The notes under the pieces were generated by a model. That model had not been told where the DNA came from, ran no database searches, and was given only the letters and a program-made list of their open reading frames with translations. From NCBI GenBank assembly GCA_027295505.1, contig JAPUKU010000047.1:1-55604 (forward strand): a DNA stretch of 55,604 nucleotides. Direction: 5' to 3'. The position numbers and the translations under genes were made by a program. The DNA comes from Acidobacteriota bacterium. GTDB taxonomy: Bacteria > Acidobacteriota > Polarisedimenticolia > JAPUKU01. Of this stretch, positions 46,250 through 52,104 are shown in pieces (within the stretch, counting starts at the first letter, position 1; each line of letters opens with the position of its first letter).

Positions 46250-47578
46250 TTACTTGCTGAGCTGCGCGATCATTCCCTTGGCAGACGATACGTGCTCGCC
46301 GTCAGGCTCCAGGGACAAATAGGTTTCGAAGTGGCTCACGGCTTCGGGAAACTGGCCCATGCCCACCAGGCAGGTGCCCAGCTGGAAGTGGGCCCCAGGG
46401 TGGTTCGGATTTGTCTCCAGGGCTTTCTCGAAGTGGGCTGCCGCTTCTTCTCGCCGGCCGGCGTTGAAGGCGATTGCCCCCAGGTTGAAGAAGGTAACGT
46501 CCGCGTTCTCGGGATCCGCCTCCACCAGCCGGCGGTAAGCATCCTGCTGCATCGCCGTGTCACCCTTGCGCCGATAGATGTCCGCCAGCTGGCTGAGAGC
46601 CGCCGCGTTGTCCAGGTCCTCGACGAGAAGCTCTTCGAGCGTGGCCTGGGCCTGGTCCAGGGCGGCGGGATTTGTTTTTGACATCGCCACCTGTGCGTTG
46701 GCAATGTACCCGAGCAGGCTGCTCTTCCTGTCGGGCGAAATCTCGATCTCCTTGCGGTATGACTGGATGGCGGCCGCGTTCTTGAAATTGGCAGCCTGCG
46801 CACGACCCAGGTAGTAATAGGCGGAAACGTAGTTCGTGTTAACGGCTATGAGCTTCTTCAGCGTCGTCTCCGCTTCGAATGTCAGGCCCATCTCGATCTG
46901 CGACCGCCCCAGAGCATACAGGGCTGCCTGATCGTCCGGCACTTCATCGAGCCTCAACTCAAACAGCGGGATGGCCTCCTGATGCTTCCCAGTCTCGGCC
47001 AGAACGCGCCCTTGCTCGTACGCATCGTCCTTACCGCCGCCCAGGGTGGACGGAGCCAGGGCATCGGCGGCAGGCGCCGCCACGACCTCATCACTGGCGG
47101 CTGGCTTCCGGAGCGCGCGCAAGGCCTGACGGTAGTCTTCTTCATTGACCATGGTGACCTTGATCTTGCAGTAACCATAGTCGCCCGTTTGGGGCAGGTC
47201 CACGACCGGCATGGGGTCCTTGGGGCCCAGGATATATTCCTTCTGGAAGGGCTCGGTCTCGCTCTCTCCGCGCTGGTCCACCGCCAGCTTGAGGATGCGG
47301 TAGCCGGGGAAATTCACCTCGAAGATGTACGACCCCTTCTCGAGGAACGGAAACGTGTACTTGCCTTTCTTCTTGGTGCTTCCCTTCTGTATGCGGCTCT
47401 TGTAGTCCTGGTTGATGGCAACGATCTCGGCCTTCTTCAGGCCATTGCCTTCGTTGTCAACCACCACGAGCTGCACCCGGCTGCGGATCTGTGCCAGCGC
47501 CGGCACCCCCGACGCCACAGCGCACACAGCAACCATCACCACCAGGGATCGCATCAGAAATCGGCAACTGAGACGCAT
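46250..47578 (-). CDS. Exported TPR protein with N-terminal carboxypeptidase-regulatory-like domain
   Basis: Signal peptide, RVQLVVVDNEGNGLKKAEI...GKYTFPFLEKGSYIFEV, multiple TPRs. Confidence 0.85.
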   Translation of the reverse strand: MRLSCRFLMRSLVVMVAVCAVASGVPALAQIRSRVQLVVVDNEGNGLKKAEIVAINQDYKSRIQKGSTKKKGKYTFPFLEKGSYIFEVNFPGYRILKLAVDQRGESETEPFQKEYILGPKDPMPVVDLPQTGDYGYCKIKVTMVNEEDYRQALRALRKPAASDEVVAAPAADALAPSTLGGGKDDAYEQGRVLAETGKHQEAIPLFELRLDEVPDDQAALYALGRSQIEMGLTFEAETTLKKLIAVNTNYVSAYYYLGRAQAANFKNAAAIQSYRKEIEISPDRKSSLLGYIANAQVAMSKTNPAALDQAQATLEELLVEDLDNAAALSQLADIYRRKGDTAMQQDAYRRLVEADPENADVTFFNLGAIAFNAGRREEAAAHFEKALETNPNHPGAHFQLGTCLVGMGQFPEAVSHFETYLSLEPDGEHVSSAKGMIAQLSK

Positions 47579-47671: not shown

Positions 47672-48178
47672 TTACCCACGCTCCAGCGTTCGGGCAACAC
47701 CGGGCGCGGCCTGGGGGGTGGACTTCTGCCCGGCCTCGGATTCAGCCGCCGCCTTCAGAGCCTGCCGCGCGAGAACAACGTGCACCACATAGACCAGGAT
47801 AAACATGACGCTGCTCACCACGTGCACTCCCACCAGGATCTTACGGGTGAGCACCTCGGAGGCGACCTGCAGTCCGTATCCCGAGAGGATCATGGGCACC
47901 ACGAGCAGGGCACCCGTCAGCCCGCTCCGCCGGCTGGGCACGGGCGGTTCGTTCTTGATGCGGGCGAAAATGTGATCCTGGGCAATCAGTCCCATGGCGA
48001 ACACCAGTAGTGGAGCTGCCATGACATGCCAGCTCAGCGCCATGGGTTGCCAGGGATGGTTGACCACGGAGAACGGATCATCGCTGTGCATGAAGTATCT
48101 CATCCAGCCGTACACCAGACCGGTTCCGGCCACGGCCCAGGTGGAGCCGTGAATGAGGACCTTTTCGGTGCGGGTCAT
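47672..48178 (-). CDS. Small cytochrome b-like membrane protein (DUF4405/b561-like by inference)
   Basis: About 4 TM helices with His in or near helices (LIHGS, ALSWHVM, VGVHVVS, VYVVHVV); overlaps FMN-binding gene. Confidence 0.6.
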   Translation of the reverse strand: MTRTEKVLIHGSTWAVAGTGLVYGWMRYFMHSDDPFSVVNHPWQPMALSWHVMAAPLLVFAMGLIAQDHIFARIKNEPPVPSRRSGLTGALLVVPMILSGYGLQVASEVLTRKILVGVHVVSSVMFILVYVVHVVLARQALKAAAESEAGQKSTPQAAPGVARTLERG

Positions 48179-48786
48179 CGCGAACCCTCCCCGACGGGGG
48201 CCGGAGCGGACCCCGACTCGCCTTCCCGGATGATGACCTGGAAGAGCGCAAGAACCCGGCGGGCAGCCTCCGTCACGACGCGTGAGGAGATCGTCGCACC
48301 GGTGAGGGTACGGATATCCTGCTTGAGGGAGAGGCGGTCATCGAGCGCCTGCTGCTCGAACTGCTTCAGCCAGCGGGGGCTCGGCAGGTATTCGGAGGGT
48401 TCGTCAAACGAAAGGATCTCGGTGGACCGGATACGCCCCGCGTCGTCAAGGGCAAACAGCACGCTCTCCGGCAGCGTGCGCACGAGATGCGAATCGGTGA
48501 AGGCGTAGCCGATCACCTTTTCCTCCACCCGGCCCACATAGTACGGGACCACGTGCCCCTGAAGAGATTCCCCGGACAGCTCCTCGACTCGCCGGGCTTG
48601 CTCCTCGGTGAGGTAGGCGATGTGGCGCTCGATGGTGGCCGGAGGAGGTAGAAGACGCGCGAGCGCTTCCTGCTGGGTGGCGTAGACGCGAGCCCATGTC
48701 GCCGGGACAGCAGCCAGGACCAAGGTGCCCGCTGCCAGGAGCACCCGGGCACCCCAGGGTTGCGCAGCTCTGGGGCCGGAATTCAT
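48175..48786 (-). CDS. Exported FMN-binding-domain (RnfG/NqrC-like) protein with flavinylation motif
   Basis: N-terminal signal/TM; DIRTLTGATISSRVVTEAA matches [ST]GAT flavinylation motif. Confidence 0.82.
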   Translation of the reverse strand: MNSGPRAAQPWGARVLLAAGTLVLAAVPATWARVYATQQEALARLLPPPATIERHIAYLTEEQARRVEELSGESLQGHVVPYYVGRVEEKVIGYAFTDSHLVRTLPESVLFALDDAGRIRSTEILSFDEPSEYLPSPRWLKQFEQQALDDRLSLKQDIRTLTGATISSRVVTEAARRVLALFQVIIREGESGSAPAPVGEGSR

Positions 48787-48787
48787 C

Positions 48788-50236
48788 TCAGAACAGGTAG
48801 CCAATTGCCACATTGTATTGATTGGTGCCCGTACCGGCATCGTTATCGAAGTTCTGGTAATCCACCTTTATTGCGATGTTAGGGATCGGCCTGTAGGTCA
48901 GTCCGCCCGTGAACACTGTCCGATCCGTGGAGGCGTTACGATCAAAGCCGGGAGGCACCCGGTGCTGAGTGTCAATCCGCTCGTAACGCACGAAAGGAAA
49001 AAGTTGCTGGTCGGAGTTGCCCAGAGGCGAGAGAACATCATACGCGATCTGACCATACCAGCCCAATAGCCTCTCACCGACGGTCTCATCGCCGACCAGC
49101 AGATCCGCGTTGCCGTCGCTATCGAGGTGTGCGTCGTTAATCGTCTCCACATCACTGATGATGCCCTGGCTGACCAGCCCCCGGAGCTCGAGCCCGCGCC
49201 ACTTCCAGTCCACGTGGACATCCACCAGTGTCAGGCGGCCGCCGTCGAAGGAGTCGAGTCCGGAATCACCTGAGTAGATCGAGGCTCCGGCCAAGAGGCC
49301 CGGCACGCCGGTGAGATCCAGGCGGACAGCAATGGCCAGATCTTCGACATTGGATCGGGAGCCGTTCTGGCGGGAGCTGCGCAGGTTCAGGCTATTGAAC
49401 TCGCGGCCGTCGAGTGGCGCCATGACGTAGGCGCGGTAGGTCCAGAGCCCGAAGTCTCCGAAAATGCCCACCCCGTTATCACGCCAGGTCGTGGGAATGA
49501 TCTGCGTCTCCACCTCCGGCCGACGCGCTCCATGGAACACCGGTGGCTCGTGCAGCTCGTTGACAAACCCGATCGGTGCCAGCAGAAGTCCGGTGCGCAC
49601 ATTGAACGAATCGTGAACAAGAAAGTCGAGGTAGGCGAACTCGAGTGAAACCTCTCCCTCCTCTTCATCCCCGGCTCCGGTCGTCGCGTGCTCGTACTCG
49701 ATCTCCGAGTTGAAGAGAACCCGGTCATTGAACTTGTAGCCGAAGTAGAGCACGGCACGTAGAAAGTCCAGGGTCTCGCTTCGGTTCGATCGCGATCCGT
49801 CGTCCCTGCGGCTGGCGGGCGCCTGATAGAGCATCTCGCCGTAGCCGCCGACCGAGAGCCCTTTCTTCGTTCCGTAGATTTTGGAGGCGGCCGGTCCGAA
49901 TCCGTGCTTCGAAGTGTCCACGCTGACCTCCGCAGCTTCACCGATCCTCAAGCGCTCCAGATCGCGGGTCAATACTTCAATTCGGCGTCCCAGCTCCGCC
50001 AGCGTCGTGGAATCCACACCGCCTCCGGCGCCGGAGCCCCGCAGGCGCTCGAGCTCGCGCCGGAGCTGGTCGATCTTTTCCTCAAGGTCGTCCACCCTGC
50101 GCTCCAGTCCCTGTTCCGACTCTGTCTCCGCAGCCTTCACGTGCGTGGCCGGTGCGGCTGCCAGACCGACACCCAGCAGACCTACTCCGATGATCCTTCC
50201 TGCTCTTCTCAGCACGGCCTCCACGCTTTCTCCCAT
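48788..50236 (-). CDS. Outer-membrane porin with N-terminal coiled coil
   Basis: Signal sequence, LERRVDDLEEKIDQLRRELERL coiled coil, beta-rich C-terminus ending NVAIGYLF. Confidence 0.82.
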   Translation of the reverse strand: MGESVEAVLRRAGRIIGVGLLGVGLAAAPATHVKAAETESEQGLERRVDDLEEKIDQLRRELERLRGSGAGGGVDSTTLAELGRRIEVLTRDLERLRIGEAAEVSVDTSKHGFGPAASKIYGTKKGLSVGGYGEMLYQAPASRRDDGSRSNRSETLDFLRAVLYFGYKFNDRVLFNSEIEYEHATTGAGDEEEGEVSLEFAYLDFLVHDSFNVRTGLLLAPIGFVNELHEPPVFHGARRPEVETQIIPTTWRDNGVGIFGDFGLWTYRAYVMAPLDGREFNSLNLRSSRQNGSRSNVEDLAIAVRLDLTGVPGLLAGASIYSGDSGLDSFDGGRLTLVDVHVDWKWRGLELRGLVSQGIISDVETINDAHLDSDGNADLLVGDETVGERLLGWYGQIAYDVLSPLGNSDQQLFPFVRYERIDTQHRVPPGFDRNASTDRTVFTGGLTYRPIPNIAIKVDYQNFDNDAGTGTNQYNVAIGYLF

Positions 50237-50241
50237 TTGGC

Positions 50242-51354
50242 TCAGCGAGTCGCTCGTTGTACTTCTGTGGCCGCGCGATATTGTTCAAATGAGTCCGTCA
50301 TCCATAGTTGAAGCTGGCCTTCCGGATCCCGCTCCAGGAACACCGCCGCAACATCCTCACGTCTCTCGGCCCACGCCAGACCGCTTCCGGGGCCCATCAC
50401 CAGAAGGGCGGTGGCGTACGCATCCGCCCGAGTCGCGTCCGCCGCCACCGATGTGGCGCTACCCTGAAACGATGCCGAACGACCGCTGTGTGGATCGAGC
50501 ACATGTCCCATCCACTCTCCGTCCCGCCAGACTCCCCGCTCCGTGTTGGCTGATGTCGCGACAGAGGCATCCCGGACTCTCAGGCGCAGAACCGGACGGA
50601 ACCGCTCGCCGGGATCAGCCACCTCCACCATCCAGCCGTCCTCACCGGGCGGGGCTCCCAGCGCCAGGACCTGGCCGCCGAAGTTCAGCAGGGCGTTTCG
50701 AACTCCCGACTCGCGGAGCACCCGGCCGGCAGCATCGAGTGCGTACCCCTTGCCGATCCCGCCGAGGTCGAGCCCTGTTCCGGCCCCGGAAAAGCTCACG
50801 GTTCGCCCGTCGCGATCGAGTTGAACCGTTCCACCCGGCCCGGGCACCCGCAACGAGGGACCGATCCCCTGTGCCTCAGTCTCCAGGCCCGTGTCGCGCA
50901 GGCCCAGAGCCCGGGTCCAGGGCTCGAGGCCCGGGTCAAAGGCACCGCCCGTGGCAGTGCGGGCTCTCAGTGAAGCCTCAATGACGTCAAACAGATCCGT
51001 GGAGCAGTGCACCGGCGCCGAGGTAGCTGCACGGTTCAGCCTTGAAAGCTCGCTGTCCTGCTTCCAGTTGCTGAGAACAGCGTCGAGCCGCTCGACCTCA
51101 TCGAGCGCGGCCTCCAGGGCGCGCACCGCCGCGGCCTGTCCCGATTCGTGTGCGAAGGTGCGCACATCGAGCGGCGATCCCATGACGTAGCGGGCGCGCG
51201 CTACCAGAACCGTATCTTTGGGAGCTGGCTGCACGGGAGGCCGCAGGCTCGTGTGGCCTGCAGCCGAGCAGGCGCAGAGCATCCCAAGGGTGCCTGCAGC
51301 GGTGGCAATACCGCACGCGATCAAACCGCTTCTCTGAAATCGCAGTCTTCTCAC
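50242..51354 (-). CDS. apbE: FAD:protein FMN transferase (ApbE), putative lipoprotein
   Basis: YVMGSPLDVRTFAHES, LDLGGIGKGYALDAA, NALLNFGGQVLALG, VLDPHSGRSA; lipobox-like LCAC. Confidence 0.93.
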   Translation of the reverse strand: MRRLRFQRSGLIACGIATAAGTLGMLCACSAAGHTSLRPPVQPAPKDTVLVARARYVMGSPLDVRTFAHESGQAAAVRALEAALDEVERLDAVLSNWKQDSELSRLNRAATSAPVHCSTDLFDVIEASLRARTATGGAFDPGLEPWTRALGLRDTGLETEAQGIGPSLRVPGPGGTVQLDRDGRTVSFSGAGTGLDLGGIGKGYALDAAGRVLRESGVRNALLNFGGQVLALGAPPGEDGWMVEVADPGERFRPVLRLRVRDASVATSANTERGVWRDGEWMGHVLDPHSGRSASFQGSATSVAADATRADAYATALLVMGPGSGLAWAERREDVAAVFLERDPEGQLQLWMTDSFEQYRAATEVQRATR

Positions 51355-51395
51355 ACTGCTCCGGTGCCCGGTGCGACCTATCGTCCGCGGTCGCT

Positions 51396-51608
51396 CTACG
51401 TACCGAGCCGGCGTACCTGAATGCCGGCCGCCACAGCCCCCCTGGCCAGTTCAACGGTGGTTCCGGGGTAGTTGGAGACGATGGTAGAGGTTCGGGTCAG
51501 AACGTTGGACAGGTCGCTCTTGCCGACGTTCGCCTGTCCAATGAGCAGAACGACCGGCTCCGCCGGGTGGGTCTGATCACGAACTGGCGCCTGGGAAAAG
51601 ACGCTCAT
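51396..51608 (-). pseudogene. Truncated FeoB G-domain remnant
   Basis: VVLLIGQANVGKSDLSNVLTRTSTIVSNYPGTTVELARGAV then stop 11 codons later; G3/G4 and membrane domain absent; directly after fur. Confidence 0.65.
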
Positions 51609-51630
51609 CAGTAAGATTCTGCTGCCATCT

Positions 51631-52092
51631 TCAACTGCTCGATTGGCACGATTCGCAGGTCCCCAGAATCTGATAGGAGTGGCGAACAGGCCGGAAGTTG
51701 AACTCTTCACATACAAAGTTCTGGAGCTTTTGAATCGTCACGGTGCTGAACTCGACGACTTTGCCACATGCAACACACACGAGGTGCTCGTGGTTCTCCC
51801 GGCCCAGGGCGTGTTCGTAGAAGGCGCGGTTCCTGCCCAGATCGACCTGCCGGACCAGCTTGGAGTCGAGCAGGTGCTTGAGGGTCCGGTAAATGGTGGC
51901 CCGGGAGACGAGGTGCTTTTTCCTCCGCAGCCGGAACAGGAGTGTTTCCACGTCGAAGTGGTCGTGGGTGGAGAAGACCTCCTGCAGAATGCGGATCCGC
52001 TCCTGGGTACGGCGCAGGTTGTGCCGGCCAAGGTAGTCGTTGAAGTGCCCGCGCTCGACTGTTTCGGCGGTGCTCTTGCTATTGCGTCTCAT
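51631..52092 (-). CDS. Fur-family metalloregulator
   Basis: LRRTQERIRILQEVFSTHDHFDVETLLFRLRRK, SRATIYRTLKHLL, HEHLVCVACGKVVEF, CESCQSSS; TTG at 52098 or ATG at 52092. Confidence 0.92.
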   Translation of the reverse strand: MRRNSKSTAETVERGHFNDYLGRHNLRRTQERIRILQEVFSTHDHFDVETLLFRLRRKKHLVSRATIYRTLKHLLDSKLVRQVDLGRNRAFYEHALGRENHEHLVCVACGKVVEFSTVTIQKLQNFVCEEFNFRPVRHSYQILGTCESCQSSS

Positions 52093-52104
52093 TCTCAATA
52101 TGAG
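52088..52104. promoter_or_regulatory. Fur-box-like palindrome at fur start codon
   Basis: CTCAT-TCTCAAT-ATGAG perfect 5-bp arms; reverse reads TTGAGAATGAGA. Confidence 0.4.

Follow-up and report, generated by a model that had tools for sequence, protein, structure and literature searches.

A conserved cassette with a Fur-type operator, a porin, a predicted flavinylated protein and a candidate cytochrome b in Acidobacteriota and other phyla: a probable module for iron reduction in the cell envelope

Why should a Fur regulator, a piece of feoB, the flavin transferase gene apbE, an outer-membrane porin, a secreted protein for flavin mononucleotide (FMN) and a small membrane protein be encoded side by side? 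The question is raised by contig JAPUKU010000047.1 of an Acidobacteriota bacterium whose genome is 95% complete. The whole 55,604-nt stretch analysed is called the window here, and the cassette coordinates are numbered within it. The original prediction described an iron-linked flavin electron-transfer cluster outside the cytosol, made of six tightly packed same-strand genes and coupled to outer-membrane passage. Linkage to feoB and a palindrome shared with feoAB support this proposal at the sequence level, its biochemistry still being inference, and the locus is probably a Fur-controlled module of the cell envelope for assimilatory iron reduction. All six elements were located on the minus strand, transcribed in the order fur, feoB relic, apbE, porin, FMN_bind gene and membrane-protein gene, with intergenic gaps of 22, 41, 5, 1 and -4 nt. 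The feoB piece is a decayed fragment rather than one of six genes. The features are as follows.

52082..52098, no strand assigned: predicted Fur operator TTGCGTCTCATTCTCAA / TTGAGAATGAGACGCAA, 14/17 against the family palindrome TTGAGAATCATTCTCAA
51631..52098, minus strand: fur (PF01475, E 7e-24)
51396..51608, minus strand: feoB relic of 70 aa, P-loop and switch-I part of the G domain (FeoB_N, E 2.6e-10)
50242..51354, minus strand: apbE, FAD:protein FMN transferase (PF02424, E 3e-61)
48788..50236, minus strand: outer-membrane porin, helical coiled-coil-like N-terminal stretch and 16-stranded barrel (AlphaFold2 (AF2) model, Foldseek)
49946..50116, minus strand: porin helices 41-67 and 76-97, predicted coiled-coil-like periplasmic extension (AF2 secondary structure)
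48175..48786, minus strand: secreted FMN-binding protein (PF04205, E 2e-6)
48283..48303, minus strand: predicted flavinylation site TGATISS, residues 162-168 (Thr/Ser column in the alignment)
47672..48178, minus strand: candidate diheme b-type cytochrome with four transmembrane helices (AF2, Foldseek, invariant His)

A porin-centred scan of named prokaryote genomes revealed at least 564 porin relatives, of which the best 80 were studied. Simple calling of open reading frames (ORFs) produced numerous antisense ORFs at these GC-rich loci, and the locus maps were therefore based on tblastn and hidden Markov model matches. Downstream genes were counted in 87 loci that remained after duplicate removal and had enough downstream DNA. 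The FMN gene followed the porin gene in all 87, so that the expected conservation of gene order was borne out across several phyla. It was followed by a membrane protein of the window type in 72 loci and by a second type, which we call 'KYM', in 13, never by both. The two loci without a downstream partner were L074, with the cytb gene upstream on the other strand, and L088, with a run of N after the FMN gene. A search of 60 related genomes gave the window-type membrane protein in 32, with the order porin-FMN-membrane protein kept in the longer loci, and the 4-nt overlap between the FMN and membrane-protein genes recurred in 27 of 32 cases. Cassette-bearing metagenome-assembled genomes (MAGs) are labelled Acidobacteriota, Gemmatimonadota, Elusimicrobia, Nitrospiria, KSB1, Verrucomicrobia and others. 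Among the named genomes, close relatives are Acidobacteria MAGs, of which many bear the label gp22 or Thermoanaerobaculia. A strong porin match was obtained in about a quarter of the 297 Acidobacteriota genomes sampled. In the 67 loci with sufficient flanking DNA on either side, apbE was present in 45, fur in 18 and feoB in 8 (the relic counted). Most loci thus have neither fur nor feoB, as would be expected if only apbE and the FMN gene were functionally linked and fur, the porin and the membrane protein were adjacent by history. We regard such a chance neighbourhood as very improbable, given the porin-FMN pair in every locus across phyla, the membrane partner in 85 of them, the recurrent overlap and the shared operator.

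This operator was searched for as a 17-bp palindrome, TTGAGAATCATTCTCAA, upstream of the first cassette gene, with a threshold of 12/17 and 599 stretches from the same loci as controls. With the canonical Fur box of E. coli, scores at the loci were modest; the lineage palindrome derived from those matches performed better. It was found at 12/17 or above before 64% of 83 cassette loci compared with 0.8% of the controls (P 4e-36), where P is overstated and 64% optimistic because the consensus was taken from the tested loci and the loci are related by descent. The window site, at 14/17, is the single best match in its own genome, and none of the 599 controls scored 14 or more; a second palindrome match in this genome lies inside a helicase-like gene and was taken as chance. 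The listed TTG start of fur (52098), the sole Fur-family gene found in this genome (G000), is inside the predicted operator, and translation therefore probably begins at an ATG a few codons further on. The layout of the palindrome matches Fur boxes, including the delta-proteobacterial dFUR-box WTGAAAATNATTTTCAW (PMC545781).

The feoAB genes provide an independent check on the palindrome. In the Gemmatimonadota chromosome CP070829, two sites were found at up to 3 mismatches, a perfect one before the cassette and the other before feoA-feoB, and the reversed pattern used as a control did not occur. When 15 further genomes were scanned with up to 2 mismatches allowed, the reversed pattern again gave nothing and the palindrome gave 24 loci: 12 cassettes, 3 feoAB (in two genomes), 1 imelysin gene and 8 without an assigned target. 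The palindrome is thus common to the cassette and feoAB in three Gemmatimonadota genomes (CP070829 and those of L193 and L196/L197), and this sharing of a conserved Fur-type operator with known iron genes suggests that the cassette belongs to a Fur regulon. The predicted regulon is wider: a perfect copy lies upstream of the imelysin gene (PF09375) in L181 (G315). The imelysin family is linked to iron uptake (PMC3143127); none was found in the window's own genome. In L189 (G325), the palindrome is flanked by a gene of the CxxCH cytochrome type and one for a porin of the OprB family, an arrangement that recalls the Fur-regulated OprB porin of Geobacter sulfurreducens (PMC545781).

The feoB relic points in the same direction. 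It retains the P-loop GQANVGKS and the motif NYPGTTVE, and no match was found past position 43 of 156 in the FeoB_N profile; a functional FeoB has a G domain and membrane domains, and the 70-aa relic is without the latter. Intact feoB was found between fur and apbE (or the porin) in the Acidobacteriota loci L054/L067, L069, L078, L079 and L084 and in the Nitrospiria locus L114. The relic is therefore most likely a trace of an ancestral arrangement fur-feoB-apbE-porin-FMN-cytb. An intact feoB lies downstream of the cassette in genomes of KSB1 and Caldithrix (L138, L130); Pfam searches confirmed FeoB in both loci, and FeoA and a DtxR-type repressor in L130. The window's own genome carries, on contig C247 (L149:1255-4552), a DtxR-FeoA fusion followed by a split FeoB, whose two genes, one for the G domain (276 aa) and one for the membrane part (468 aa), overlap by 4 nt.

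The flavin part of the cassette was recognised as predicted. ApbE is the sole PF02424 protein found in the genome (207.8 bits against a gathering threshold of 25.6), with an N-terminus that looks lipoprotein-like by eye. The exported TGATISS protein belongs to FMN_bind (PF04205, 28.8 bits against a cut-off of 22); its N-terminus looks by eye like a hydrophobic signal, and it carries a motif of the (S/T)GA(T/S)x(S/T) type. In an alignment of 32 sequences, also used for the residues of the membrane protein, the acceptor residue of this motif was Thr in 26 and Ser in 6. FMN is thus predicted to be bound covalently to this protein, the nearest solved relative of which is RnfG (9eri, E 6e-9). Since it is the only FMN_bind protein found in the genome and neighbours the only ApbE, the pairing of enzyme and substrate is unambiguous, and no Nqr/Rnf-type FMN protein competes for modification. 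As in RnfG and NqrC, FMN would be carried on a Thr. The cluster differs from those systems in having no other Rnf or Nqr subunits, and its FMN protein has a signal-like N-terminus and is encoded beside a porin and a small candidate cytochrome.

The membrane protein had been described as a four-helix, His-containing protein overlapping the FMN gene, with DUF4405 or Ni_hydr_CYTB as possible families. The description held, including the 4-nt overlap; on its own, the window protein stays below the thresholds of both families. The AF2 model (pLDDT 88.7) has four long helices, and H41, H51, H69, H119 and H133 are invariant in the aligned sequences (one row ends before H119). H51 and H69 lie on helix 2 (44-76) and H119 and H133 on helix 4 (109-152), and the pairs H51/H119 and H69/H133 give a diheme pattern: in the model, two parallel transmembrane helices carry two His each, as in diheme b-type cytochromes. 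H41 sits in the loop motif DPFSVVNHPWQP, which the positive charges would place outside. The nearest folds in Foldseek were cytochrome b6 and bc1 cytochrome b (probability 0.97), with an E-value of only about 0.5. For Ni_hydr_CYTB (PF01292), the window protein scored 11 bits compared with the required 30.1, and weak matches occurred in 10 of 25 relatives (best E 6e-5). DUF4405 (PF14358), which has six transmembrane helices and four central His, was rejected, as the match was below threshold (4 of 25 relatives, best E 0.041) and the model has four helices. No solved relative was found by sequence. We take this protein to be a candidate for a minimal diheme cytochrome b that Pfam does not yet cover.

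The 'KYM' protein (MKYMxxGGFQ...THxHLPMM...LTHL), found for example at L130:1922-2473, L138:11776-12327 and L090:6615-7169 and in 10 more loci, also matches no Pfam family. One of its helices carries THxH-x13-H, and it is possibly a homodimeric heme protein. Homology between the two types was rejected (HHalign probability 0.2%). That the two unrelated membrane proteins replace each other speaks for a dependence of the FMN protein on a partner in the membrane.

The predicted outer-membrane porin was supported by structure. No Pfam family passes for the window protein, and no match to Porin_O_P (PF07396) was found. Its AF2 model (pLDDT 83.9) has a signal-like N-terminal helix, two coiled-coil-type helices and 16 strands, as in general porins; the closest folds in Foldseek were OmpU (E 8e-14), OmpC/F and OmpM1 (probability 1.0, TM 0.42-0.51 to the query). 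Coiled-coil Pfam models matched the helical stretch weakly. Weak Porin_O_P matches occurred in 11 of 30 porin relatives (E up to 0.1, best 1.5e-5), and a member of a sister branch passes this profile. With 16 strands, the barrel would suit a diffusion pore and would be too small to sheath another protein. The sister branch, without FMN and cytb genes, comprises the Acidobacteriota loci L155, L156, L157, L159 and L161-L164. In L156, L159, L162 and L163 the porin gene adjoins a gene for a di-heme oxidoreductase (DHOR), with a cupredoxin gene in L156 and L159 as well, and a divergent regulator of the DtxR-FeoA type is encoded in L163. Pairing with periplasmic redox proteins seems to be a recurrent feature of this porin family.

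How might these parts work together? Under iron limitation, Fur would leave the operator at 52082-52098 and the operon would be expressed. The porin would admit small ferric (and ferrous) complexes to the periplasm, and the second Thr of the TGATISS motif in the secreted protein would receive FMN from ApbE. The four-helix protein would draw electrons from the membrane, probably from menaquinol, and pass them across two b hemes, one per membrane side, to the FMN protein, which would reduce Fe(III). Fe(II) would then be imported to the cytosol by FeoB, encoded in the cluster in relatives and, here, where the local copy has decayed, at the DtxR/FeoA-FeoB locus elsewhere in the genome. A more daring version, which we put forward tentatively and think doubtful, is that the coiled-coil stalk of the porin docks the flavinylated protein in the periplasm, forming an envelope-spanning flavin-porin unit in which iron is reduced on leaving the pore and passed to FeoB. 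If true, this would be a flavin counterpart of porin-cytochrome complexes that serves iron feeding instead of respiration.

Respiration itself has to be considered. Geothrix respires Fe(III), and a MAG labelled Geothrix (L132) carries the cassette. A quinol-linked membrane carrier with FMN is also the layout of flavin-based respiratory systems (PMC8238504), so the cassette might be an electron outlet for dissimilatory metal reduction or for another small acceptor imported by the porin, its iron regulation being incidental. However, the Fur-type operator and the feoB linkage imply control by iron starvation and not expression driven by an acceptor, no terminal oxidoreductase recurs in the cluster, and a search for multiheme cytochromes near the cassette gave a single ORF with several CxxCH motifs in all loci; a porin-cytochrome reading was dropped on this last result. 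On these grounds, we consider a respiratory role unlikely. The substrate might also be something other than free ferric complexes. Sequence does not define it, the porin has the fold of a general diffusion pore, and PepSY-type flavinylation clusters that include TonB receptors have been proposed to act by reductive release from siderophores (PMC8238504); the FMN protein and the cytochrome could then reduce heme, siderophore-bound iron, copper or protein thiols under iron control. We have little faith in this alternative: the transporter that recurs in the cluster is FeoB (TonB receptors in the neighbourhoods were not systematically searched), and the operator of the cassette also precedes feoAB.

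Several observations weigh against assimilatory iron reduction as proposed here. Seven Plug-domain (TonB-type) receptors are encoded in the window's own genome, so the porin is not its sole gated outer-membrane route. The low counts of adjoining fur and feoB genes given above, the absence of a clear operator in about a third of loci and the dependence of the consensus on the tested loci also count against it, and the membrane protein is below the threshold of all Pfam families, with poor Foldseek E-values.

Parts of such a system have been described. Flavinylation clusters with PepSY-, MsrQ-, NapH-, DsbD-, NQR/RNF-like and DUF4405 partners (Meheust 2021, PMC8238504; Huang 2024, PMC11334425) likewise combine ApbE, a secreted FMN-binding protein and a membrane electron carrier; some are iron-regulated or linked to iron transporters. 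Other flavinylation clusters have been tied to iron assimilation (Meheust 2021, PMC8238504), and PepSY-type ones were reported to be Fur-repressed (PMC8238504). Unlike in those clusters, the carrier here is a four-helix, five-His protein below Pfam thresholds (or 'KYM'), and a 16-stranded porin is constant; the word 'porin' is absent from the text of PMC8238504 and PMC11334425. Fur-regulated porins, one adjoining feoAB, were predicted by Rodionov 2004 (PMC545781): in Geobacter and Desulfuromonas, a Fur box precedes psp/OprB-like porins weakly similar to PF07396, and another porin is linked with feoAB. The psp porins were reported without an accompanying FMN protein, ApbE or cytochrome b. In MtrAB/PioAB and in PCC3/PCC4 (PMC5566968), a barrel is likewise encoded with a periplasmic redox protein, and PCC3/PCC4 add a conserved inner-membrane protein. 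In contrast to barrels of the MtoB/PioB type (24-32 segments), the window barrel with its 16 strands would be too narrow as a sheath, and the cassette has a flavin-based redox partner and no multiheme cytochrome c. In an experimental precedent from E. coli, iron uptake depends on OmpC/OmpF once transport by TonB is blocked, and porin and FeoB likewise form an iron route across both membranes (PMC7315122); unlike the cassette porin, OmpC/OmpF are general porins under EnvZ/OmpR, with no dedicated periplasmic reductase in the operon.

We found no description, in the open-access literature (subscription papers were outside the search), of a dedicated porin with a covalent-FMN protein, ApbE and such a membrane protein. 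Flavin-based reduction outside the cytosol and porins under Fur control have each been described or predicted before, and their joining appears to be new. In several phyla of soils and sediments, the iron physiology of which has been little studied, the cassette points to an iron-supply route that is widespread and has gone unstudied. It offers a testable answer to how iron could cross the outer membrane and be reduced for FeoB without a siderophore receptor. In addition, two membrane-protein families without a Pfam match can be named as likely cytochromes, and TTGAGAATCATTCTCAA is offered as a Fur-box consensus for these phyla.

The cassette is flanked by sppA upstream and, 93 nt downstream, by a gene for a tetratricopeptide repeat (TPR) protein, neither of which is in the conserved core. 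In about 14 loci from the same class, the cassette is followed by this TPR gene (window 46250-47578), whose product has an N-terminus resembling CarboxypepD_reg, and then by a further gene block common to those loci, in a conserved synteny.

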